Source: Asterionellopsis glacialis
Taxonomy: Eukaryota > Bacillariophyta > Plagiogrammaphyceae > Rhaphoneidales > Asterionellopsidaceae
DNA length: 24,563 nt
NCBI GenBank assembly: GCA_014885115.2
Contig: WKLE02005577.1
Coordinates: 1 to 24,563 of the forward strand
Direction: 5' to 3'
Below are positions 7,545 through 23,402 of the stretch, one piece after another. Positions within the stretch are counted from its first letter, which is position 1, and each line of letters opens with the position of its first letter. A model generated the notes under the pieces. It was given only the letters and a program-made list of their open reading frames with translations, made no database searches and had not been told where the DNA came from. The position numbers and the translations under genes were made by a program.

Positions 7545-10500
7545 TTACTCTATTTCAGCAAGCAAATCATCGCCATCAACATTGTCTTTGTTTTCAACAT
7601 ATACTTTCTTGATTGTGCCTGCAATGGGAGCTTTGATTTCTGTCTCCATCTTCATTGCCGACAACTTGAAAAGTGTTTGGCCTTCTTCCACAGAGTCTCC
7701 ATCACTCGCAAGTACATCAACAATTACTCCAGGCATTGGACAACCTAGGTGACCCTTGTTGGTTGGGTCGCACTTTTCACGTCTGGCTGATTTTATAGCA
7801 CCACCACCGCCGGCAGCCAATTTGAGTGGGGTCACCTCGTCAGGGGTACGAATGAACCAGCGTTCACCATTAACTTCCAAACTAACTGCACGAGTTCCGG
7901 TCGCCTCATCATATTGGTCAATTGCAGAAACCCGGATGAAATATTCTTTGCCTGGCCCAATCGCTACCTCAACCTCTTCACCAGTTTTCATTGGGCGAAG
8001 AAAGACGTTGGTAGGGAGATCACTGATGGATCCGTAAATTTTCTCGAAGGCAAGCCACTCTTTGAAGACAGCCGGGTAAAGTGCATGAGACAAAAGGTCC
8101 TTGTAAGAAATTCTTGACTCTCCGAATGCTTCTTTGAGCATCTTTTCAGATGCATCAAAGTCGTAATCGGGCAACTCAGCTCCTGGACGACCCTCAAAGC
8201 ACTCTCTACCATCTGGAAGAGAACGTCCTTTCAATACCTTGGAACGAAGAGGTTCAGGGAAACCTCCCGGAGGAGGTCCCATTGCCCCCTGGAAGTACTC
8301 AATGACAGAGTTGGGAAGAGGAAGCTTGTCAGCATCTGCAAGTACATCCTCCTTTGTGACACCAAGACTAATCATGAACTGTGCCAAATCACCCACGACT
8401 TTGGAGGAAGGTGTGACCTTGGGAATATCTCCCATGAGCTTGTTAGCATCTTGATATGCCTTCTTTACCTCTCCGAATCGGCCCGTCAATCCTAGTTGTT
8501 GGGATTGGAACAAGAGATTAGTATATTGACCACCAGGGATTTCGTGCATGTAAACATTGCTACCAACTGCAGAACTCAACTGTGGAACTTCAAAAGGTGA
8601 GTATTGGTTTCTCTTGCTCTCCCAATACTGATTAAGTAATTGAAGAGCTTCAAGGTTAAGATGGTTTTCGTCACTTCCTACAGCCGCTACGATCGCTCCT
8701 AGACATGGCTGCGAGCTGAGACCAGACATTGAGTCAATGGCACCATCAACTATATCGGCTCCCGAATCAGCGCCTGCGAGCATTGCAGATACTCCCATAC
8801 CTGCTGTGTCATGTGTGTGAAGGTGGATCGGAACATCGGGATACTTCCTGCGAAGCTCACCGACAAGCATTTTGACTGCTCGAGGAGTCAAAAGACCTGC
8901 CATATCCTTGATGGCAAGGGCATGGGTGCCAAGATTCATCAGTTCTTCTGCATAATCAAGATAATATTTAAGATTATATTTGTTGTCAGCACTTGTGTTT
9001 GTCACATCTCCAGTGTAACAGATGGCAGCTTCCACAAAGCCACCAGCAGCAACAGCTGCCTTGATGCCGAGTTCCATGTTTCCAGTGTAATTGAGTGAGT
9101 CGAAGACACGGAAAACGTCAATGCCGCTGTCATATGCTTGCTTACAGAAAGCATATACAAGATTATCGGGGTAGGATGTGTACCCGACTGCATTTGCGCC
9201 ACGTAAAAGCATTTGGAAGCAGACATCAGGAGCGGCCGCTCGAAGTTTTTCAAGACGTTCCCAAGGACACTCGTGCAAGAAACGCATTGCTACGTCAAAT
9301 GTGGCACCACCCCACATCTCCTCACTGAAAACGTCAGCGTTTGCGAATGCAGCATTGGTAGCTTCAGCGGCAAGGAGGAGATCTTTTGTTCTCATACGAG
9401 TTGCGAGAATACTCTGGTGGGCATCTCTCCAAGTTGTATCTGTTACTAGTAGACGTGGATGATTTCTTACTGCTTTGGCCAATGCCGAAGCGCCCTGTTC
9501 ACGCAAAATCTTTCGGAAGCTCGGTGTTACAACTCCCTCAACTTTTTTATTAGCCAGAATTGCCTTGATAGCCTTGGTATCTGGAGGCGTCACATCAGCG
9601 ACCGGAAGTCCTGCGCATATCTCTGGGTTCGCACCTAACGTCGATGGATGTCCATTAACAGCCAAATTTGCAATATACTTGAGGTACCCCTCTAAATCAT
9701 CAAGTTTTTGATAGCACTGACTCTTGCGCCCCGGCACGGGTGTTGTGTCAAGCAACTTGGGGTTTTGTTCAATGAAGTTGAGGTCAAAGTTTCCATTCAT
9801 AAACTCTGGATGAGCAAGTACGTTTAATAGGAAAGGGATGTTGTTCTTGACACCACGAATGTGGTTTTCGATAAGTGTTCTGTGCATTCGGCGCACAACA
9901 CCCTCCCATGTGCTGCCCTTCGCAGTATACTGAAAATTAGGAAATAAAATAGATTTTGTTAGGCACGCTGGTTTGAACTAAAGGGTCGTTCACGACGCAC
10001 ATGGTATTCTCAATGCATTCTCACCTTGACCAACAAACTATCAAAGTAGGGTTGGATAACCATACCCGCGTATCCACACCCATCAATACGGATCCCAGGC
10101 CCAGTGCTGTGACGGCAAACATCAAGCATACCCGTGTCTGGAGCGAAATCCCTAGCGGGATCCTCCGTTGTAATACGACATTGCATAGCAATACCTACAG
10201 GAATGATTGTTTCCTGGTTTAATCCAAGTTGTTCGAAGGTAGCGCCACCGGCAATGAGGAACGTGGATTGAACAATATCAATGTTCGTCACTTCTTCAGT
10301 TACAGTATGTTCGACTTGAACACGAGGATTGACTTCCATAAAGTAGTGCTGCCCGTTTTCATCTACAAGAAACTCTACAGTTCCGGCACATAAATACTTG
10401 CAAGCCTTTGTTAGTTTCAATGCATCGTCCTGGACGTTCTTTCGGACTTCGCTTGAGTGATGCCACGCTGGTGCAATCTCGATTAACTTCTGGTGACGAC

Positions 10501-11293
10501 GTTGGATAGAGCAGTCTCTCTCCCAAAGATGAACAACATTGCCCTTTCCATCTCCTAAAACTTGAACTTCAACATGTTTGGCGCTACCAACATATCGTTC
10601 AATGAAGCAGCTTCCATCGCCAAAGGACGCCAATGCTTCACTGGCGGCTGCGTTGAAGAGGGGGATCAATTCCTCCCGTGTTCGGACGACACGCATTCCC
10701 TTTCCTCCGCCTCCTTTGGCAGCCTTGATCATGACGGGGAGTCCGTATTTGTCAACAAAATCTTCGGCCTGTTGAGGATCCGTAACGGCTCCATCAGTTC
10801 CAGGAACAACACTCACGCCAGCAGATATAGCGAGTTCCTTTGCCTTGGTCTTGTCACCGAAAATGTCGAGGTGCTCGACCCGTGGACCAATAAAGGTGAT
10901 GTTATTGTCGACACATGCCTGTGCAAACTCGGCAGATTCTGCGAGGAAACCGTATCCAGGATGGATAGCATCGACACCAGCATCCTTTGCAACCTTGATT
11001 ATGCCATCAATGTTGAGGTAGGATCCAACTGGAGTCCCATTCTCGGGAAGGCAGTAGGACTCATCAGCATTCCAACGGTGAGTTCCATGACGGTCTTCGT
11101 GAGCGTAGACCGCGACAGTCTTCATGTTGAGTTCAGTGGCAGCACGAAAGATGCGTACGGCGATTTCTCCACGATTTGCAGCCATGATGGTCTGGAAAGG
11201 GCAAAGTTCGGTAGGATTAGGACGAAGAGGCTTCGTGGAAGTTTGCCTCTGAAACTCCGGCATGCTCATGGCGTTGGGTGGCATCGGCGGCAT
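7545..11293 (-). CDS. PYC: Pyruvate carboxylase
   Basis: Exons 11293-10025 and 9929-7545 (minus), 1217 residues, close to the usual 1150-1200 of single-chain eukaryotic enzymes. It makes oxaloacetate from pyruvate, bicarbonate and ATP. Biotin carboxylase occupies about 33-480: MAANRGEIAVRIFRA, the glycine-rich ATP loop KGGGGKGM (193-200) and the catalytic segment MEVNPRVQVEH (319-329). Carboxyltransferase: DTTWRDAHQS (587-596), IKDMAG with the likely carboxylated K764, and metal-binding H794 and H796 in HLHTHD. The biotinyl domain is C-terminal with SAMKMET and biotin-accepting K1183. The chosen ATG (11293) follows an A-rich leader. An upstream in-frame ATG at 11443 would add 50 residues that do not look like a clear presequence. 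Location is thus probably cytosolic, but organelle targeting through an unseen exon is possible. Confidence 0.96.
9930..10024 (-). other. Intron of pyruvate carboxylase gene (95 bp)
   Basis: On the minus strand the donor AAG|GTGAGA starts at 10024 and the acceptor TTTCAG ends at 9930. Phase 0. Removal joins ...DSLLVK to YTAKGSTWEG, matching the family's conserved reading across this point. Confidence 0.92.
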
Positions 11294-12242
11294 TTTTTTG
11301 TTTGAATCTTGTTTGTCGGTGTATGGATGGATTGTATAAGAGAGCAACGATGTGACGGTCGCACACAAGTCGTTCTTTGTGATTTTCTTCTGTTTTTTTT
11401 TATGACAGTGTTGCACAACGTCGAGTAACCAATGAACAACCATTTAAGATTTTTGGGCTTCTCATTTCAGTTTCTTCGAGGGATCCCGGATGCGAACCCT
11501 ATTTGACAACCCGGAGAGCTTCTCCAAGATATTGTGAAATTTCAAGTGATGCTAGTGGATGAATGTATCCACCGTAGGACCTACTACAACTAGATGTACT
11601 TACTAGTCCTACCGTAGAGGACTACAGTGGTCGTTGGAGAGAGGCAGGCGCGCACCCTAGACAGTCAGTACCTCTGGTAGCATGGTCTGCTGTCTCCCTC
11701 CATCGTTTTTTGCTTTGCTGCTAAACTGACGGAATGAAACTTGAAAAACGAGTTACGGGAGAGCGAGGGATTGTTTCGGACGTATGATTCTCGTACACAG
11801 CCAGACGTCCGAGTTTACGAATCAAGAACACTCCTTTGGATTTACCTGGGGAATCAATTCTACGGTAACTACGAGGATATTGGGAGCCACGAGCCACGGG
11901 ATACCTGCCGATGACGTGGATCTTCATTTTCTTGTCTGGTCAGCATTTTTGCGCTTTGTGACCGCACCGTGCTGACTGCTGAGTGCAGAATTGTTCTGTC
12001 GTGGCAGCAATAAGATCGTTGTACAACGACAATAACAACTTTGTCGTCACTTTTTCTTCATCGTAATCGTGCATTGGATTGTGTGTTGTGTTGTTTCCTG
12101 ACAGATCAGATCGATACGATTGACACAGAAATCAAGTGACATACTTACGTACATATTATTTGCAATAGTATCTAGAGCATAAACGACTCCTTCCTTTCGA
12201 CAGAACTCAATTGATAAACATAGTTTTTCACAATAAAACACA
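11294..12242. promoter_or_regulatory. Divergent promoter region, PYC / ABC1-type kinase
   Basis: This 949-bp segment separates two divergent start codons. It contains GTAGGAC (11574-11580) and GTCCTAC (11606-11612) as inverted copies, an inverted repeat TCGGACGT (11776-11783) / ACGTCCGA (11805-11812), and TGACGTGG at 11912-11919. The 11294-11443 part is likely the pyruvate carboxylase 5' UTR. No gene is supported. Confidence 0.55.
11776..11812. repeat. Inverted repeat in divergent promoter (8-bp arms)
   Basis: TCGGACGT and ACGTCCGA are exact inverted copies with a 21-base spacer; each contains ACGT, the core of bZIP sites. Could be a paired factor site. Confidence 0.45.
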
Positions 12243-15073
12243 ATGAGAGTTCACTGGTTGGCCGTTGCTCTAGTGTGTGGCACAACCGCATTTTCTCCTT
12301 CAGTGCAAGCTTTTACTCCTATTTCTACAAGTCCACGACCATTCACATCGGTTCGCATCCATGCTTCTACGTTGGATAAAACTGAAGCAACAAAGGAAAC
12401 AACCAAGTCAAATGGTGAAAGCAGCAGCAGCAGCAGCAGCAGCAGCACAAAGTTCGCCACTGATAATGATGATGAAGGTGACTTGAGTTTTTCTGATCGA
12501 CTTGCTAATTCCGGTGTTGCATCGGCTGCTGCCATGGCTACAGCAGCTGTCAATGCTGCCGTATCAATGAAGGCTCTTGAAGCCCCTGATGTAGAAAAGT
12601 CCTACATTTCACTGGATCGGTCTGCCAATGAAATCGATGAAGAGGGACTCCCCTTGGTGTATGATAAGGATGCAATTCAAAAGTACTGGAGTAAGGAACG
12701 AGGTGCACTGAATAAACGCTGGGGATACTTTGTGGGAAAAGCTGTACCGTTCCTTACTCGACTCACTACATTATTTATCAAGGATGGAAAGATTGATGAA
12801 AAATACATTCCAGAATTGTCAGAAAAGGCACGAATTGACTTACAAGATCTTGGTCCAACCTTCATCAAGGCTGGACAAATGATGAGTGTCCGTCCTGATG
12901 TTTTGCCACAAGCAACCCTAGATGAATTGACGAAACTCCAGGATTCAGTCGTACCATTTGAAACAAGCATAGCTGTAGAACAAATTGAAAAGGAATTGGG
13001 TGGTCCTCTTGGACAGTTCTTCACTTCGATTTCAGAAGAACCCGTAGCTGCTGCATCATTAGCTCAAGTATATTTAGCAACACTCAATGACGGAAAAGAT
13101 ACTCGTGTTGCCATCAAGGTTCAACGTCCAGACGTTTTGGGAACCGTATCGAAGGATTTGTACGTGTTGCGTCGTGCAGCCGAAGTCTTTCAGGGACTTG
13201 TGGATCGCTTTGCACCTCAACAACGGACCAATTACGTTGCTCTTTTGAATGAATGGTCCATTGGATTCTACACAGAGTTGGACTTTAATAATGAAGCCAA
13301 GAATCAAGAAACCCTTCGCAATATGCTCATTGACAACAATATTCAAGGAGTTACAGTACCAAAGGTTTACAAGGACTTGTGCACTAGACGAATCTTGGTG
13401 AGCGAATGGATGGATGGTAAAAAGTTAAGCAGTTGTACAGATCAAGAAATTGCTCAAGTAACACCCTTTGCTCAAGAAGCCTTTTTGACACAACTTTTTG
13501 AAGTAGGTTTCTTTCATGCAGATCCCCATCCAGGTAAGAAACATGACAGACGCAGGTTTTTTTTTTTTTTTTTTTTTAAATTGACACATTGAACATATTC
13601 AAATATCTAGCTAACCAAAACTTTTCATTATTTTCTTCTTTTTCCCACGTGATGTAACTCTGTGTAGGCAACTTACTTTTCCTTGATGAACCCACGGAGG
13701 AAGGACATCAATTGGCTTTGATTGATTGTGGACTTATGGCTGAGATTGGTAGTAAAGACCGTGATAATATGATTTCTGCTGTTATTCATCTTGCCAACAA
13801 GGACTACGCCAATCTTGTGGATGATTTCATAAAACTAAAGATTTTACCAGAAGATTCAGATAGAGCTGCAATTATCCCTCTCATGGATAAGGCACTGTCA
13901 CCCTACGTCAAGGGCGGTGGAGCCAAGAAGTACGAAGAAGAATTAAAGAAATTATATGGAATGGAAGATGGATCTATGCAAAGTACAGTTGGTGGTTTCC
14001 AAGCCATGACACAAGATGCCTTGACTGTTCTAAATGATATTCCCTTTAGTATCCCACCTTACTTTGCTATTTTGGGTAGAGCTATTGTTACACTTGAGGG
14101 TGTAGCCCTTACGGGTAATCCAGATTATGGGATTATTATGGAGAGTTATCCATTCATTGCTCGAAAGCTCCTTCGAGAAGATCGTCCTGAAATTCAACGT
14201 GCTCTCCAGGAAGTACTATACAGTGGAGGATCTGGAGGAACCGAACTGAAATTATCCCGACTTTTGGCTTTGCTAAACAATGCTTCCGGTGCTGTTGCCA
14301 CCCAGGAAGGTGCTGCATTCGTTGATCTGGATGCTGTCCCAGAAGACGGTCTAAGCTTCCCCACTGCATTGAAGTTCCTAATGTCGGACAGAGCGGAAAG
14401 TCTTCGTAATCTCCTTGAAGATGAAGTGGATAACGTTGTTGATATTTTGAGTAGACAATTGGTACGAAAAGGTCTTGGTGAAGCCGTTGTGGCCTTGACA
14501 CCACCACGCCCTCCCAGTATTCCATTCTTGGGGGATATTTTCCCTCCTAGTCCCAAGCTTGATGAGATTCCCTTGCCACTTTTACTTCCTGGAATTGGTC
14601 AAGACGGAATTAACAGACCATCTGTATCTGTATTAACATTGAATCAATTTAGAGACTATGTGGCTCCCAAGCTTTCACAAGATGATGAACTGTATGCATT
14701 GGGATTGTCGGATGCTGCACAAGAATTCTTTGGTGATGAAGTTGCTGAATTTGTGCGTGGTGAGGGTGTGTTTAGTACCAAGAGCGCAGACCTACTCTTG
14801 TCGGCTGTAAAATCAGGCGCCTTTGGTCAGAATGATGTCCTTAGTGGAGAAACCGCACAAGGTATTATTGAGTTTGTGGGGAATGCCTTATCAACTCTTT
14901 CCTCCGATGGTAGTAGCTCGTCGTCATTCGATGAAACAATAAAGGAAGCCCTATCAGAACTTGATGATTCGGAACGTGCTAGACTTGAAGAGATTACAGA
15001 AGAATTGATTCAACGAAGTATTGCAAGAGCTGTTGAACGTCTGTCTCAAGTGGAGAGGTTGATATCAGCATAA
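12243..15073 (+). CDS. ABC1/UbiB-family atypical kinase, plastid-targeted
   Basis: Exons 12243-13533 and 13668-15073, 898 residues. The N-terminus is a signal peptide with two possible diatom cleavage sites, TA|FSP (F17) and QA|FTP (F24), then a low-complexity Ser run encoded by AGC repeats near 12420. The ABC1 kinase-like domain spans about 190-480. It contains the family-specific KAGQ motif (209-212) followed by MMSVRPDVLP, the alanine-rich loop AAASLAQVY (269-277), VAIKVQRP with K292, ELDFNNEA (345-352), VSEWMDG, HADPHPGN (425-432) and the metal-binding D450-C451-G452. Plant and algal plastid ABC1 kinases sit at plastoglobules or thylakoids and affect prenyl-lipid (tocopherol, plastoquinone) metabolism and photooxidative stress; that role is inferred here. 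The C-terminal 400 residues are conserved-looking but unassigned. Confidence 0.93.
13534..13667 (+). other. Intron of ABC1-type kinase gene (134 bp)
   Basis: The donor CAG|GTAAGA is at 13534 and the acceptor TGTAG ends at 13667; phase 1. It splits the glycine codon of the HADPHPGN catalytic motif, so correct splicing is required for kinase-fold integrity. It carries a long T-run near 13557-13577. Confidence 0.92.
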
Positions 15074-15494: not shown

Positions 15495-17122
15495 CTAATG
15501 CAATGTCCCTTCAGCCTTGATGGGTGTCACTTTAGCAGCGGCATTCATAATTTTGTCAGTTGTTGTTTCTGCAGATCCTCCTGATTTGGTTTTATGATAT
15601 GCTGCACTAGCAGCAAACCATGCATTCGGATGATTCCCTACTCCATCCAACTTGACATCCGGTACTGTTGCAGCTTGAGGGTGCATGACTTCAAAGTGTT
15701 TGGCACATGCCAATTGATAATTTTTACTTTTTTTCAGGGCAAGGATCGCTTTTTGATCGGCGTTCGTACCAATATTCATTTTGGACAAGAGAGATCCTAA
15801 ATGAGTTTCATCGTAGTGCCGGTACGGACATCCATGGTGGTCACCGGATTGAGGTCCTTGACCCATGATAATTTTCGTGCAATTATAGGGTGTGTAGGAA
15901 GCACGTTTCCCCTCCTTCCCGTACATGTGACGAATGTTATAACTGTAGTTTTTATGGAATTGTTCCGAGGACATGATTTTGGAGAATTCCCCTTGAAAGA
16001 ATAAAAGAGATTCCTCCATGGACATGCCTGCACCCTTTAAAAATAAACCATACTGCAATCGTCCCCAATGTTTGAGCTTGTGGTCCCGTTTTAATCCCGT
16101 ATGCAGTTGGGACATGCATAATGGCATGGATGTGGTAGCATACCGATCAATGTTGGATGCCTTTAATTCATCAAAATTTTGATCCGTCTGGTCCGTGAAG
16201 CGATTCCCGCCCGTGTATTGAGAATTCATATTTTTCAACAGGGGTGCAATCCGTTGTGATTCTTCCGTTACCTGTCCAAATGCTTGAGATGCCAGTACCA
16301 ATGACTTGGACAGTGCCATACGGAACTTGCTCGACAGGATACTTACTACCTTACTCAAAGGAACGTATGCCAAACCTCCCTTGACGAAACAGGATCGGGA
16401 GGCAATCAAATCCAAGGCTTCTACGAATGGGATTGCATAGTAAGGGGTAGATGTAAATTCTCCCAGAGTCGTATGGGGCATACTCAACAATTCTGTTTTC
16501 AATCCTTCCTTGGTTTCCGGTGATACTTGATTCAACGTAATGTGACTCTTTTTTAAAAATGCTTCGAGTGCAGTGGGTTTTTTCATGATTTGTTCAAGTC
16601 GATACCGAAACAAATGTCCTTCTTGTACCAAAAACCACCGACGGAGTTCTTCGGTACGACAATAGGCTGCACGTAAAATAAAATGTGATGCAAGATCTGT
16701 ATCTGCATCAGACTTGAATTGAGATTTGAGTGCATTGTCTAATTGAATACGATACGTATCACCCGTAATGTTACGAACTTTCATTTCTTCAATCTTTCGA
16801 AGGACCTGGCATGACATTAATGATAATGATAATAATATTATTAGATTTCGTAGGATGAATGAATGAAATATAACAAGAGAATCATAAAGACAAAGAGAAA
16901 GAGTATATCTTGGCGGCCTTTTTCCGAAAATCATGTCATGCATTTATTTATTTATTTACTTACCTTGAGACGGGCAAGAGCAAATTCTTCAAAGTCATCG
17001 AGACTCAATTCAAAATTTGGAACTTGATTGTAAAAGTTAATATCACCAATGCTTGCTGCTGTACGTTGTTCCTCTGCCTTGATGATGGCAGAGCGGACAG
17101 GACGACTCGATACGACATTCAT
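15495..17122 (-). CDS. PRIM2: DNA primase large subunit (p58)
   Basis: Exons 17122-16964 and 16805-15495 (minus), 489 residues. This is the regulatory subunit of primase in the polymerase alpha-primase complex, which starts RNA primers in nuclear DNA replication. The N-terminus has the p58 signature FYNQVPNFELSLDDFEEFAL, then RLKVLRKIEE across the splice. The C-terminal iron-sulfur domain keeps four cysteines with family-like spacing: C283 (MPLC), C362 (YNCTK), C379 (HHGCPY) and C420 (LACAKHFE). Adjacent conserved stretches are LKHWGRLQYGLFLKG and YNIRHMYGKEG. The start ATG has A at -3. An E2F-like palindrome lies about 220 bases upstream, consistent with cell-cycle control. The short C-terminal tail is low in complexity. 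Identity is secure. Confidence 0.96.
16806..16963 (-). other. PRIM2: Intron of PRIM2 (158 bp)
   Basis: On the minus strand the donor AAG|GTAAGT starts at 16963 and the acceptor GCCAG ends at 16806; phase 0. Without splicing the reading frame would start inside the intron and lose the N-terminal 53 residues. Confidence 0.93.
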
Positions 17123-19940: not shown

Positions 19941-20456
19941 ATGTCTGCCTTCCTCATCTGCATATGTCTTTTTGCTGCAATTGTTGCTGTTAGTAGCCTT
20001 GACGTTGCTCTGGATTGTGATCCGTGCATTGACAGACCTTCCTATAAAATCAAGGTGATCGTTCATGGGACGAAACGAGATCTATTCTGGCAACAGGTCC
20101 ATGATGCAGCCCTTCAAGCGGGAAGGGACATGAGAGTGGAATTGCTGTTTGATCTCTATGAGAATTACGATGAGAATACAATGGCTACGGATATCGAGAA
20201 TGCTGTAATGGCTTCTACCAGAGTTCATCAAAGCGGTGGTCCCAAAATCGACGCTCTTGTCGTCACAATCCCATCTCCGACTGTAGAGGAGGCAGTGAAG
20301 ATAGCAGTGAAGCATATTCCGGTATTTGGTATAAACAGTGGTTACGATGTAGCTGAGGAACTTGGACTTTTAGGTTTCATTGCCATGGATGGTACGTAGC
20401 AAAAGTTGTTTTTAAAATTCCATTCCTTTGTGTTCCAAATTTTTAATATTTCCGTG

Positions 20457-20492
<36 letters not shown>

Positions 20493-23402
20493 GCTCCCCC
20501 CGTACTAGAATACAATGGTGGATCGGAGGCCGCAAAACAATTTCTATCAAAAAGAAATGTAACAAAAGCACTCTTTATTGACCATACAAGCAATAACACT
20601 GCGGTCTATAGAAGATTCAACGGGTTTGCAGATACTCTCCAACAAAATGTTGTGACGTCTAATGAAACAAATGTTTTCAATGGAACAACAAATAATGTTG
20701 AGGTAGAATATCTCACGGTAGACCCTAGTACTGATGACCTCGTTAAGCAAATAGAACCTTACTTGGAAGGCTGTAAATATGATGCTGTTCTTCTGGCCGG
20801 CGGACTAACAACACTTGAAGCAACTACATCAGCTTTCTATGCAAATAATTGTGATTTGTCCGATACCCTTCTTGGATCCTTTGACACTGGCACATCAATT
20901 TATGATGCCATTGCCGTTGGAAAGCTTTCTTTTACTATTTCTCAACGGCAGTATCTACAAGGCACTTTAAGTGTGGTGTTGGCATCCTTGTATGCTACGA
21001 CTGGTAAAACACTTGCTAGATCTTCCGAGTCGAAGGAGTACGGAATTTACTCTTCTGGCCCAACTGTTATCAACCTTCGCAATCTACCCAGTGATACACT
21101 TCAAGTTTGCGAAGCAGAAGCATTCCCTGTGTGTTCCAACAACACAGTCGAAGAACCGGTCAACGAGATGACTGGATCCAACAAATGTCCATGCACAGAT
21201 AGGTCCCTTATTAAAATCGGCGGAGTTCTTCATGGTAGTGCGTTACATAGACATGGATGCCTTTCTTGTCTATTTTCTTTTAGTCTTACATATTCTGATC
21301 TTTTTATACGTAATTTCTTGCTCTCTGATTAATGTATTATCATGGCTTCAGTTACAACTGATATCTTTTGGGATGTTGTATTTGAACAATGCGAGCAGGC
21401 TGCAAACGACCTTGGTATTGAACTCCTACTAGAACGAATGGAGCCTCAGGAATCGGCTGAAGTTTGGCATACAAAGATGGCGCAAAAAATGATTTCTTTG
21501 TGTCAACAAGACATAGATGGCCTTTTTGTCACAATTCCAAGTGAATATGTTGTCGCAGCAATTAAACAGTGCGAATCTCTCAACGTTCCTGTCATCTCTG
21601 TCAACTCTGGTCTAGATATCGCTCAAAATATAAGTTTGATGCATCATATTTCACAGCAGGAGTATGCTGCTGGACTCGCTGCAGGAAAACGTCTTCTCGA
21701 AAGTGGTTTAGTGCAAGAAGTCATATGCTTGGACGTTGAACCGGGAAACATAGCTGTCGATGATCGCTGTAGAGGTTTACGTGACGCGACAATGGACTAC
21801 AGCGAGGTGAAACATCTTGGATCAGTCGATGTCTATAAAGATAATGATGCTGTTGCCATAAAAGCCATTGAAGATGCCGTGAACAGAACTGGGGATTGGA
21901 GCGGAGTTGGATTGCTGAACACTGGAAGTGGAAATGCTGATGTCGTCAAACAATTAAAAATGCGCCACGAAAAATTTGTATCTGGTACATTTGACTTAAG
22001 CAACGAGATTTACAAAGGGCTCGATGACGGTTTATTCTTATTTGGTATCGACCAAAACCCGTTCATGCAAGGATATATTCCAGTGTGGTTGCTTACCATT
22101 TTGGCATCCACAAAACAACATTTAGTTACGTCTTTGATTGAAACTGGACCAGCCTTTATTGAAAAATCTCCTTCTAATGAACAAAAGATTTGTACATCAA
22201 ACCACTTTGAAGTCTGCCCCAGGCCCGTAAAGCACAACAAAAATCAAATTGAGAAAATCAGACCGTTTGGGATTACCGCTTGTGTCGTTGCCGGTTTAGT
22301 ATCATTTTGCTTCTTTCTTTGGTTGATAATCTTCCGGAGTAACGCTGTTGTAAAAAAGTCTCAACCATTATTCTTAGGGATGGTTTGTTTTGGGACTCTT
22401 CTCATGGCTTCTGCCATTATTCCTCTGAGCATAGATGATTCTATTGCATCCGACAAAACTTGCAGTATGGCCTGCATGGCGGCACCTTGGCTCTTCTCTA
22501 TAGGTTTCACCATCGCTTTCTCGGCACTCTTCAGTAAGATTTGGCGCATAAATCAGATTATGAAGAACTCACAGCGCTTCCGACGTGTAACGGTTAGGAC
22601 AAGAGACGTGCTACTCCCATTTACTATTCTTTTGACATTGAATATTGTCTTTATGCTTGTTTGGAATGTTGTCGATCCTATGTATTGGGACAGGACGGAG
22701 CCAACAAAAACCGGTGATGGTCTAGAGTCATATGGGTACTGTCATCTTGGCGATGGAAGTGTCTCTACATCAATGTTTGCCTGTTTGGTTCTTGTGTTTT
22801 TGCTAGCCATTGTCCTTGCAAATGTTGAAGCATACAAGGCAAGAAACATTAGTACAGAATTCAGTGAAAGCAAATCCATTGCCATGGTAATGGTGTGTTT
22901 TCTACAGGCAATGTTGTTGGGCATACCTTTAGTTGCACTGGTATCTGATAACCCCCCAGCTTCTTATTTTGTGAAGGTTGCGCTTATATTTGTCATCTGC
23001 ATTTCTTTGGTGCTTCTCATCTTTATTCCCAAGTTGCATCATGTACGTGCATTAAACAAAGAGAACACCAAAAGAAGGATGAGTACAACGAATGCTCTCA
23101 GAGTAAGGGTCTACCAGAAAGAGAAACTTGCAAGTACGGTTGACTCCAATGTAGACCCATCAACCATCTTATCAAGTAGCTTTCACAGTTCTCTATCCAA
23201 GGAACAACTTATTGAACTTGCTAAGCGTCTAAATGAAACATGGGACGATGGCTTCGAACCTATCGAACTTGGAAATCTCCTACGGGAGTTTGGAGTTTCT
23301 GTAGCCAGTAATGATAACCGAAGGGCGTCTTTCGCTGATAAGGTAGTTTCTATAGATACTTCTAATGACCAAAATGCAGCATCTTCCACCGAGAATAACT
23401 GA
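19941..23402 (+). CDS. Class C (GABA-B-like) GPCR with two tandem bacterial-type sugar-binding domains
   Basis: Exons 19941-20391, 20509-21234 and 21352-23402, 1075 residues. A signal peptide (1 to about 20) is followed by two PBP type-1 (ribose-binding/Peripla_BP_4-like) modules, about 36-359 and 386-681. They are internal repeats: LVVTIPSP/LFVTIPSE, FGINSGYDVA/ISVNSGLDIA, TISQRQYLQG/GIDQNPFMQG, and each closes with C-x4-F-x-V-C (351-359, 673-681). Repeat 2 ends like bacterial sugar-binding proteins (IDQxPxxQGY). Seven helices follow at about 699-720, 730-750, 769-790, 812-833, 863-886, 901-923 and 930-952. Class C hallmarks are the W-x6-F-x-A-x8-W pattern around helix 3 (FSKIWRINQI), VWNVVDP after helix 4 and the extracellular cysteines near C763/C767 and C856. 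The cytosolic tail (953-1075) is short. It probably signals ligand binding through G proteins; ligand and partner are unknown. Confidence 0.88.
20392..20508 (+). other. Receptor intron 1 (117 bp) with CTG repeat
   Basis: The donor G|GTACGT is at 20392 and the acceptor ACTAG ends at 20508; phase 1. The split codon GAA gives ...AMDEYNGGSE. A run of ten TGC units fills 20461-20490, just before the acceptor. Confidence 0.8.
20461..20490 (+). repeat. (TGC)10 trinucleotide microsatellite
   Basis: Ten uninterrupted TGC units inside receptor intron 1. They occupy the place of the usual pyrimidine tract and would encode poly-Leu if the intron were retained in another frame. Confidence 0.95.
21235..21351 (+). 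other. Receptor intron 2 (117 bp)
   Basis: The donor G|GTAGTG is at 21235 and the acceptor CTTCAG ends at 21351; phase 1. It joins KIGGVLH to VTTDIFW, near the start of the second binding module. It has the same length and phase as intron 1. Confidence 0.82.

Follow-up and report, generated by a model that had tools for sequence, protein, structure and literature searches.

Introduction

Animal GABA-B receptors carry one flytrap per chain. Ectodomain swaps to bacterial-type binding domains are already known among class C receptors, because Krishnan et al. (2012, PMC3251606) describe fungal and Dictyostelium 7tm_3 receptors whose binding domain is BMP in 13 proteins of D. discoideum and LysR_substrate, SBP_bac_1 or OpuAC elsewhere. 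Port et al. (2013, PMC3727952) describe three receptors of the diatom P. tricornutum whose N-termini resemble the periplasmic portion of ABC sugar transporters, and in the same species GPCR1A or GPCR4 transformants showed altered cell shape and stronger attachment (Fu et al. 2020, PMC7452957). Diatom GPCR genes are reported to respond in their expression to growth on surfaces, mating cues or signal molecules of bacteria, and overexpression of some of them to alter cell shape (PMC7452957, PMC5485032, PMC7296067); the passages concerned name no ligand that binds such a receptor.

Here, we analyzed a stretch of 24,563 nt from Asterionellopsis glacialis (GCA_014885115.2, contig WKLE02005577.1, positions 1 to 24,563, forward strand), referred to below as the window. 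It contains a gene whose product combines a signal peptide with a pair of Peripla_BP_4 modules and a class C 7TM domain that is closest to the one in GABA-B.

Gene structure and domain architecture

Translation gave a single open frame from three forward-strand exons (19941-20391, 20509-21234 or 21237, and 21352-23402) separated by GT-AG introns. Exon 1 (19941..20391) provides the start codon, the signal peptide (approximately 19941-20000), a C-D-P-C-I-D-R cap and the start of module 1, and is followed by intron 1 (20392..20508; 117 nt), which contains a CTG repeat. Exon 2 (20509..21237) encodes the remainder of module 1, the Cys linker C-P-C-T-D-R and the first strand of module 2. After intron 2 (21238..21351; 114 nt), exon 3 (21352..23402) supplies the remainder of module 2, a C-x4-F-x-V-C stalk, the 7TM domain, the cytoplasmic tail and the stop codon.

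The original prediction placed the second donor at 21235, giving 1075 residues, and this model proved one residue short. Donor 21238 (GTGCGT) yields H-G-I-TTD, read VLHGITTDIFW as in homologues. Because two residues lie between H and TTD in 37/37 matching homologue stretches (GV or GI in 29 of the 37), we prefer this donor and a window protein of 1076 residues.

The splicing of the window gene is inferred from sequence, and exons 1-2 and exon 3 could in principle be two adjacent genes joined by a gene-model artefact, which we consider highly improbable. Homologues show the identical order in one protein, and their residues agree across both exon junctions; the A-M-D-E-Y at the exon 1/2 junction, for example, is also present in P0001. 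This homologue, whose source label is an MMETSP transcript ORF of type complete, contains module 1, module 2 and the 7TM domain in the same order, a finding that speaks against two genes having been joined in error. Separate transcripts for exons 1-2 and exon 3 were thus rejected, the homologues being continuous.

Pfam placed Peripla_BP_4 in two stretches of the window protein (protein E 9e-42). Module 1 covers residues ~35-362 (20043..21143, split by intron 1) and module 2 residues ~386-685 of 1076 (21213..22226, split by intron 2); self-alignment of the two gave 28% identity over 337 columns (E 5e-28). The linker between them (21144..21212) carries the C-P-C-T-D-R motif, an echo of the module-1 cap. 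The 7TM domain (22272..23033) matched 7tm_3 with E 4e-35 and 122 bits against a curated cut-off of 33.5, and its nearest PDB structure was GABA-B R2 (6uo8, E 9e-25). Hydropathy revealed a signal-like N-terminus and seven hydrophobic segments downstream, with loop charges that agree with the positive-inside rule. These results bear out the original prediction of a signal peptide, tandem bacterial-type sugar-binding modules and a seven-helix GABA-B-like domain, and the motifs on which it drew (TIPS, NSGxD, the Q-x4-Q-G block, C-x4-F-x-V-C, FSKIWR and VWNVVDP) were all found in the translation. Near the C-terminus, a stretch of ~30 residues of the L..L...L......GI type (23208..23297) appears to have similar counterparts in several closer relatives, as judged by a loose pattern that was run on 22 proteins and also matches elsewhere.

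Recurrence of the tandem architecture

Module 1, module 2 and the 7TM domain occurred in this order in 23 of 53 database matches and in 12 of 40 further matches. The architecture thus recurs, and several named diatoms are among its carriers. An alignment, A1, was built from 35 of the 53 matches, the remainder being omitted as 7TM-only, odd or carrying extra domains.

Variants of the architecture were also found. Five proteins (P0082, P0085, P0086, P0088 and P0089) have the tandem ectodomain without a 7TM match and with one hydrophobic segment after it, while two others (P0036 and P0041) have a Cys-rich end and no hydrophobic segment. In P0019, a single chain unites the tandem modules, a 7TM domain and a PDEase_I domain, an arrangement suggestive of cyclic-nucleotide signalling. 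Among open PMC papers, our literature search found neither a tandem flytrap GPCR nor a combination of Peripla_BP_4 with 7tm_3.

The 7TM domain and signalling

The FSKIWR, SESK and IPK motifs of the window protein align with GABA-B R2 and correspond to K/R after TM3, an acidic residue before TM6 and P-K at TM7, positions that are called crucial for GABA-B activation (PMC3727952). At E up to 1, Pfam returned no ANF_receptor (PF01094) match. Because its ectodomain is Peripla_BP_4 instead of ANF_receptor, we classify the window protein on the basis of the 7TM domain, as a class C GPCR and not as a GABA-B receptor. In the 7TM tree, 18 diatom-type domains grouped apart from five insect GABA-B1-like ones. 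A single clade of all 14 tandem 7TM domains was absent from the best tree, yet was not rejected (AU p 0.105). A sister relationship between the window and P0019 7TM domains was rejected (p 0.02); since P0019 forms a long branch, its 7TM domain may reflect either a domain swap or fast divergence.

In the A. glacialis assembly, a G-alpha model search gave four matches, all below the cut-off, two of which were Arf-like when read out; a strict P-loop pattern recovered no G-alpha, and RGS was not found, results that do not amount to absence. The ectodomain might instead serve mainly in scavenging or anchoring, with a 7TM part that does not signal through heterotrimeric G proteins. That no G-alpha was recognized in the assembly is in line with this idea, as are the seven proteins above that have the tandem ectodomain without a 7TM match. 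However, the window 7TM domain retains the positions described as crucial for GABA-B activation (PMC3727952), and the union of tandem modules, 7TM and PDEase_I in P0019 points to cyclic nucleotide signalling; we therefore regard a mainly scavenging role as quite unlikely.

Subfamily and bacterial relatives of the modules

A lead overlooked by the original prediction came from NCBIfam, in which the rhizopine/inositol-type subfamily was the best-scoring assignment for the modules. The rhizopine model (rhzpin_SBP, NF052284) was the top model for module 1, with 94.8 bits against 19.6 bits for the next, RbsB, and the sole match for module 2 at E up to 0.01 (134 bits). It matched 35/35 proteins of A1, with a best E of 3e-84 versus 3e-13 for the next model. 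Both modules nevertheless lie far below its equivalog cut-off of 420 bits and are related to, not members of, the NF052284 equivalog. Because five bacterial relatives, at 243 to 338 bits, miss the cut-off as well, the model names a neighbourhood, not a ligand. Each of the two modules, and the bacterial profile too, had its best PDB match in 4ru1, the nearest solved SBP, which we take to have been solved with myo-inositol.

Alternatively, the ligand could be a common monosaccharide such as ribose or glucose, or autoinducer-2, given that the fold is also that of RbsB, LsrB and related proteins. Peripla_BP_4 spans many sugar SBPs, the PDB matches include ribose-named and other sugar SBPs, and RbsB was the second NCBIfam model, present in 21 of the 35 A1 members. 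Yet at E up to 0.01 RbsB reached just 19.6 bits on module 1 and gave no match to module 2, LsrB, XylF and MglB matched neither module, and rhzpin_SBP was ahead by tens of bits. A monosaccharide or autoinducer-2 ligand thus appears unlikely, and ribose or AI-2 as a first guess is unsupported by the NCBIfam scores.

Gene neighbourhoods offer further orientation. We considered the best 80 of at least 593 bacterial loci confirmed with one peptide pattern, many of them Pelagibacteraceae near-copies, and examined up to ~4 kb of flank per locus; 4 of the 80 loci supplied the query genes. We applied a strict rule that called for iolG with >=50% identity across 250 residues or more, or for iolB/C/D/E with >=45% across 150 or more; 52 of these best 80 loci had such a gene in the flank. 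After dereplication at 75% identity the count was 12 of 31 loci drawn from the same best 80; the 19 with no iol gene by the strict rule included the Gemmatimonadota group of the query sequence. A looser count (61 of the best 80) was replaced because weak iolG matches may be other oxidoreductases. At locus L021, the neighbours were genes other than iol. Within ten genomes, iolG above the cut-off occurred within 10 kb of 8 of 10 such SBPs, compared with 7 of 140 other Peripla_BP_4 genes among those listed, but 8/10 is no unbiased rate because the genomes were chosen after iol neighbourhoods had been counted. Bacterial relatives thus often adjoin myo-inositol breakdown (iol) genes, which makes for a testable ligand guess.

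Origin of the modules

In the careful tree, from which P0067 was left out as a long branch, module 1 (9 rows), module 2 (10 rows) and the bacterial sequences (37 rows) formed groups with UFBoot/SH-aLRT support of 100/100, 100/97 and 100/99, respectively. Two quick trees likewise placed each of the three on its own side of a branch. Because modules 1 and 2 each form a single group apart from bacteria, the grouping fits one acquisition followed by one duplication. The diatom modules branch outside every sampled bacterial member in the careful tree, and binding specificity may therefore have moved.

Motif positions in the two modules

We compared motif positions across 28 module-1, 34 module-2 and 37 bacterial rows. 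We omitted P0067 and seven proteins that are soluble or partial (P0034 to P0039, P0041) but retained P0028 and P0032, neither of which has a 7TM match. The original prediction suggested that the ancestral ligand chemistry survives in module 2 alone. The part that stands is the difference at the closing motif: the module-2 IDQ has the D that is typical of bacteria (97% of the 37 bacterial and 100% of the 34 module-2 rows), and the ISQ of module 1 reflects a change throughout its family (S in 89% of the 28 rows). In other sugar SBPs, the residue preceding this Q is A or G (2ioy IAQ, 2qvc MGQ). Further family-wide changes in module 1 are M at the Q494-equivalent and loss of the C518/C532 pair, in addition to S at the D626-equivalent; bacteria and module 2 show conservation at all of these positions.

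As worded, however, the claim is too strong. Module 1 of the window protein retains H-G, D, F-W, N-S-G, R, F-D and Q, and among the 28 module-1 rows R, the D of FD and the G of NSG reach 100% and Q and N 96%. H, G, F and W stand at 75-79%, the N-terminus being absent in some rows, and the D before F-W at just 50%. Across both module families, R and the D of FD are retained in 100% and Q in at least 96%. Decay of module 1 was rejected as well, since its mean identity between the window protein and 27 homologues is as high as that of module 2 (50% versus 48%), although it has fewer near-invariant columns (44 versus 61).

These patterns bear on whether module 2 binds ligand alone, with module 1 acting as a flytrap that binds nothing or is modulatory, and that sets up an interface of dimer-like kind within one chain. 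GB2 plays such a role for GB1 in GABA-B. The fixed changes at conserved module-1 positions, its fewer near-invariant columns and its lower score against the bacterial model would all be expected of such a flytrap. On the other hand, R, FD, Q and NSG persist in module 1, similarity across homologues is about equal for the two modules, and altered specificity accounts for the fixed changes equally well. Binding by module 2 alone is therefore a real but somewhat doubtful possibility.

Proposed receptor model

We favour, with roughly even confidence, a diatom class C GPCR that senses cyclitol-like polyols through tandem modules derived from one bacterial rhizopine/myo-inositol-type SBP. An ancestor would have acquired the bacterial SBP gene once; the gene copy would then have been duplicated within the gene, each copy capped by a small Cys motif, and the tandem fused with a 7TM domain of the GABA-B-like type. 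The flytrap would close once ligand occupies the cleft of module 2 and, probably, that of module 1 as well. Closure would in turn switch on the 7TM domain by way of the short Cys stalk, similarly to GABA-B, with putative downstream coupling. We infer that the likeliest ligands are inositols, inosamines or polyols related to them, of algal or bacterial origin. As for module 1, it may have shifted its specificity or adopted a supporting role.

The original prediction proposed that a chain with two flytraps might sense two ligands or undergo dimer-like activation within itself. A bolder reading along these lines, which we think improbable as a whole, is a diatom cell-surface inositol/cyclitol GPCR whose two flytraps share one bacterial origin, became fixed in distinct states when a single duplication had occurred, and read two different polyols in one chain, as GABA-B does with two subunits. 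In this reading the tandem ectodomain would also be a cassette that came to sit on 7TM domains of more than one kind, one of which has a cyclic-nucleotide phosphodiesterase built in.

If the cyclitol-sensing model is true, it would provide a ligand for an algal GPCR and a case of a bacterial uptake protein reused as a eukaryotic receptor sensor, duplicated to give two flytraps per chain. The tandem-module receptor family offers a concrete ligand guess from bacterial neighbourhoods and modules that can be expressed separately.

Comparison with known systems

The receptors of Port et al. (PMC3727952) and Fu et al. share with the window protein a diatom class C 7TM domain. The main text of Port et al. 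contains neither "tandem" nor "rhizopine" and refers to inositol as a second messenger only, and a tandem protein may be present among their sequences. The receptors of Krishnan et al. (PMC3251606) likewise place a bacterial-type periplasmic binding domain on a class C 7TM, but the passages on these domains do not name Peripla_BP_4, and the word "tandem" is absent from the text. The Dictyostelium Grl receptors have a BMP-type ectodomain (PMC3251606), whereas the window protein has no BMP match in Pfam at E up to 1. Tandem flytraps on a single signalling chain are shared with BvgS-type proteins (PMC4352136), which are bacterial sensor kinases, while the window protein is a GPCR.

Rhizopine/inositol ABC-transporter SBPs (NF052284, 4ru1) are the best model and PDB match, with key motif positions retained; the window modules differ in being arranged in tandem, fused to a 7TM domain and below the equivalog cut-off, and in the fixed changes of module 1. 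Animal GABA-B is the closest PDB relative of the 7TM domain and shares its TM3, TM6 and TM7 positions, and neither receptor has a Cys-rich domain between flytrap and 7TM. The window protein differs in having two flytraps per chain, built from Peripla_BP_4 rather than ANF_receptor.

Architecture and gene model of the receptor

The receptor almost certainly has the architecture originally described, two tandem bacterial-type sugar-binding modules followed by a GABA-B-like class C domain (7TM). In Pfam searches, Peripla_BP_4 matched over two stretches (E 9e-42 for the whole protein) and 7tm_3 also matched (E 4e-35), while ANF_receptor was absent at E up to 1. An alignment of module 1 with module 2 showed 28% identity (E 5e-28). 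The closest PDB entry to the 7TM was GABA-B R2 (6uo8, E 9e-25), and that to module 2 was 4ru1, a CUT2-family monosaccharide-binding protein (E 6e-18), which was again the top match for module 1 alone (E 8e-11). The loop charges of the 7TM agreed with the positive-inside rule; of nine N-x-S/T sequons, seven were located in the ectodomain.

The gene (19941-23402) consists of three exons, the first of which (19941-20391, + strand) joins exon 2 in frame across a GT-AG intron; a CTG trinucleotide repeat lies within this intron (20459-20490). The predicted three-exon frame was confirmed, but not the length of 1075 residues that follows from placing the intron 2 donor at 21235. A donor at 21238 gives 1076 residues and brings back one residue kept by homologues: the spacing from H to TTD was two residues in 37 of 37 matching homologue stretches, with GV or GI in 29 of them. 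The original observation stands, corrected by one residue, and its interpretation was right in part. Residue numbers refer to the 1075-residue translation unless stated. The C-terminal stretch at 23208-23297 has counterparts in several closer relatives.

The assembly comprises 40.3 Mb in 1503 contigs, the window being contig C1383, and contains a silicon transporter gene (E 7e-82). The receptor gene, as two exon pieces, was the sole Peripla_BP_4 gene matched in this genome. Its neighbors encode a pyruvate-carboxylase-like enzyme (7548-11443, - strand), an ABC1 atypical kinase (12237-13589, + strand), and a DNA primase large subunit (15498-16943, - strand), none with a visible link to the receptor.

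Distribution of the tandem architecture

We conducted a protein search and a profile search, scoring about 8000 candidates in each. The protein search yielded at least 53 matches. Judged by HMMs built from the receptor's own modules (module, >230 residues; 7TM, >200 residues), 23 of these contained module 1, module 2, and the 7TM, and six more contained all three with one or more partial. Twelve of the 53 matched by the 7TM alone: P0040 (source label CCRYP), which carries a chemoreceptor-like PDC domain, and eleven others, ten of them named insect proteins or GABA-B receptors. The profile search yielded at least 69 matches, 40 of them new; the full order was found in 11 of these 40, with module 1 split in one further case and a partial 7TM in another. 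Nine showed both modules and no 7TM match, some of which may have been cut off by contig ends. By name, full-order proteins came from the diatoms Seminavis robusta, Cylindrotheca closterium, and Fistulifera solaris and from one Bacillariaceae MAG; some are therefore already in public databases, one under the name of a GABA-B receptor.

Several variants of the ectodomain were also observed. P0011 (1470 aa) has an NMT1-type binding domain ahead of the tandem modules and 7TM, giving three binding domains in one chain. Tandem ectodomains with no 7TM match ended in Cys-rich stretches lacking a hydrophobic segment in P0036 (Pseudo-nitzschia multistriata) and P0041 (a Psemu1 gene model), and were followed by a single hydrophobic segment in P0082 (Mayamaea pseudoterrestris) and P0089 (S. 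robusta). P0067 (428 aa), possibly a bacterial tandem, contains the end of one module and a whole second module of the rhizopine-like subfamily.

Origin and divergence of the modules

A careful phylogenetic tree contained 56 rows (37 bacterial, 9 module 1, and 10 module 2), and each set fell on its own side of a branch (UFBoot/SH-aLRT: bacteria, 100/99; module 1, 100/100; module 2, 100/97). The same grouping appeared in two quick trees, one with 84 rows and the other with 57. With bacteria taken as the outgroup, it fits one acquisition and one internal duplication preceding the spread of the receptors, although one of the two modules may instead have come from an unsampled donor.

Conservation was counted over 37 bacterial, 28 module 1, and 34 module 2 rows. 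Among 80 columns at least 85% conserved in bacteria, at least half of the rows kept the bacterial letter at 43 in module 1 and 46 in module 2. Common to both modules were R186/R531 and D276/D607 (100%), as well as Q296/Q627 and the N of NSG (at least 96%); several kept positions presumably correspond to sugar contacts in RbsB. The N-terminal H, G, F, and W were kept at 75-79% in module 1, where some rows are incomplete, versus 88-94% in module 2, and the D preceding F-W at 50% versus 91%. Family-wide in module 1, S replaces the D that precedes Q296/Q627 (89%), M replaces another Q (79%), and F stands where module 2 has the Cys pair C518/C532 (71% and 46%). The proposal that only module 2 keeps the ancestral chemistry was correct in that the D-to-S change is family-wide, but "only" was too strong, as module 1 keeps R186, D276, Q296, and NSG.

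Mean identity of the receptor to 27 homologues was 50% in module 1 and 48% in module 2, with 44 and 61 columns, respectively, at 90% or more. From these figures, module 1 was altered and afterward conserved at several positions, a history better suited to altered specificity or a structural role than to decay.

Ligand and signaling

Among 18950 NCBIfam models, the rhizopine-type SBP model (rhzpin_SBP, NF052284) led for module 1 with 94.8 bits (RbsB next, 19.6). For module 2 it was the sole model within E 0.01, at 134 bits, and it matched all 35 proteins of a homologue alignment. None of these matches reached the model's equivalog cut-off of 420 bits, nor did five bacterial relatives (243 to 338 bits), and rhizopine itself is therefore not implied. 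In the class C receptor P0042, which has one Peripla_BP_4 domain of another kind, RhaS was the top model and rhzpin_SBP came second, so the fold alone does not produce this preference.

Bacterial relatives were the best 80 of at least 593 confirmed loci, fetched with flanks up to about 4 kb. All four loci inspected closely had the myo-inositol breakdown gene iolG (in L054 at 332.6 bits, slightly below the cut-off of 355), three also with iolB and iolC, iolD, or iolE. Under a strict rule (iolG, ≥50% identity over 250 residues; iolB/C/D/E, ≥45% over 150), an iol gene occurred in the fetched flanks of 52 of these best 80 loci, and in 12 of 31 after removal of near-copies at 75% identity. In ten genomes, an over-cut-off iolG lay within 10 kb of 8 of 10 such SBPs, against 7 of the 140 other Peripla_BP_4 genes listed (Fisher p 5e-8). 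These figures serve as a contrast, not as a rate, because the genomes were picked with the neighborhoods already known and 150 of 311 matches were used. The diatom modules branch outside every sampled bacterial member, and their ligand may therefore have shifted; we consider the ligand class proposed from the model scores and iol neighborhoods, cyclitol-like polyols, about equally likely to be right or wrong.

The best-supported mechanism is that ligand would close the flytrap of module 2, with module 1 binding or stabilizing, and that a short Cys stalk would hand the change on to the GABA-B-like 7TM. No Cys-rich domain lies between module 2 and the 7TM, the stalk being C-x4-F-x-V-C, and in alignment with GABA-B R2 the 7TM retains the K/R, acidic, and P-K positions. 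No G-alpha was recognized in the assembly, where introns and possible gaps could hide one. P0019 (1483 aa) carries a PDEase_I domain (E 2e-70) behind the tandem modules and 7TM in one chain, which hints at cyclic nucleotides.

Comparison with other class C receptors

In a tree of 7TM domains, 18 diatom-type domains were separated from five insect ones (100/100). Module 2 of the receptor clustered with those of P0019, P0021, and P0054 (100/99; 54-60% identity). Yet the receptor's 7TM shared only 31% identity with that of P0019 and with the partial one of P0054, and 57-58% with those of P0012 and P0021. Two readings fit these sequences: transfer of the ectodomain from one 7TM type to another, or very rapid divergence of a single 7TM.

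We found no description of the tandem architecture in the portions of the open PMC literature searched. Port et al. 2013 (PMC3727952) describe three P. tricornutum receptors whose N-termini resemble periplasmic parts of sugar transporters, the word "tandem" being missing from the main text. A bacterial binding domain on a class C 7TM is not novel by itself, because Krishnan et al. 2012 (PMC3251606) report several such domains in fungi and Dictyostelium. The A. glacialis genome contains two other class C 7TM genes. In one (L002, C603:36145-39900), a piece at 189-2271 matches SBP_bac_8, so that here too a diatom 7TM is paired with a binding domain of bacterial type; the other (L003, C58:1529-5389) has an ANF_receptor ectodomain, a layout like that of animal class C receptors.
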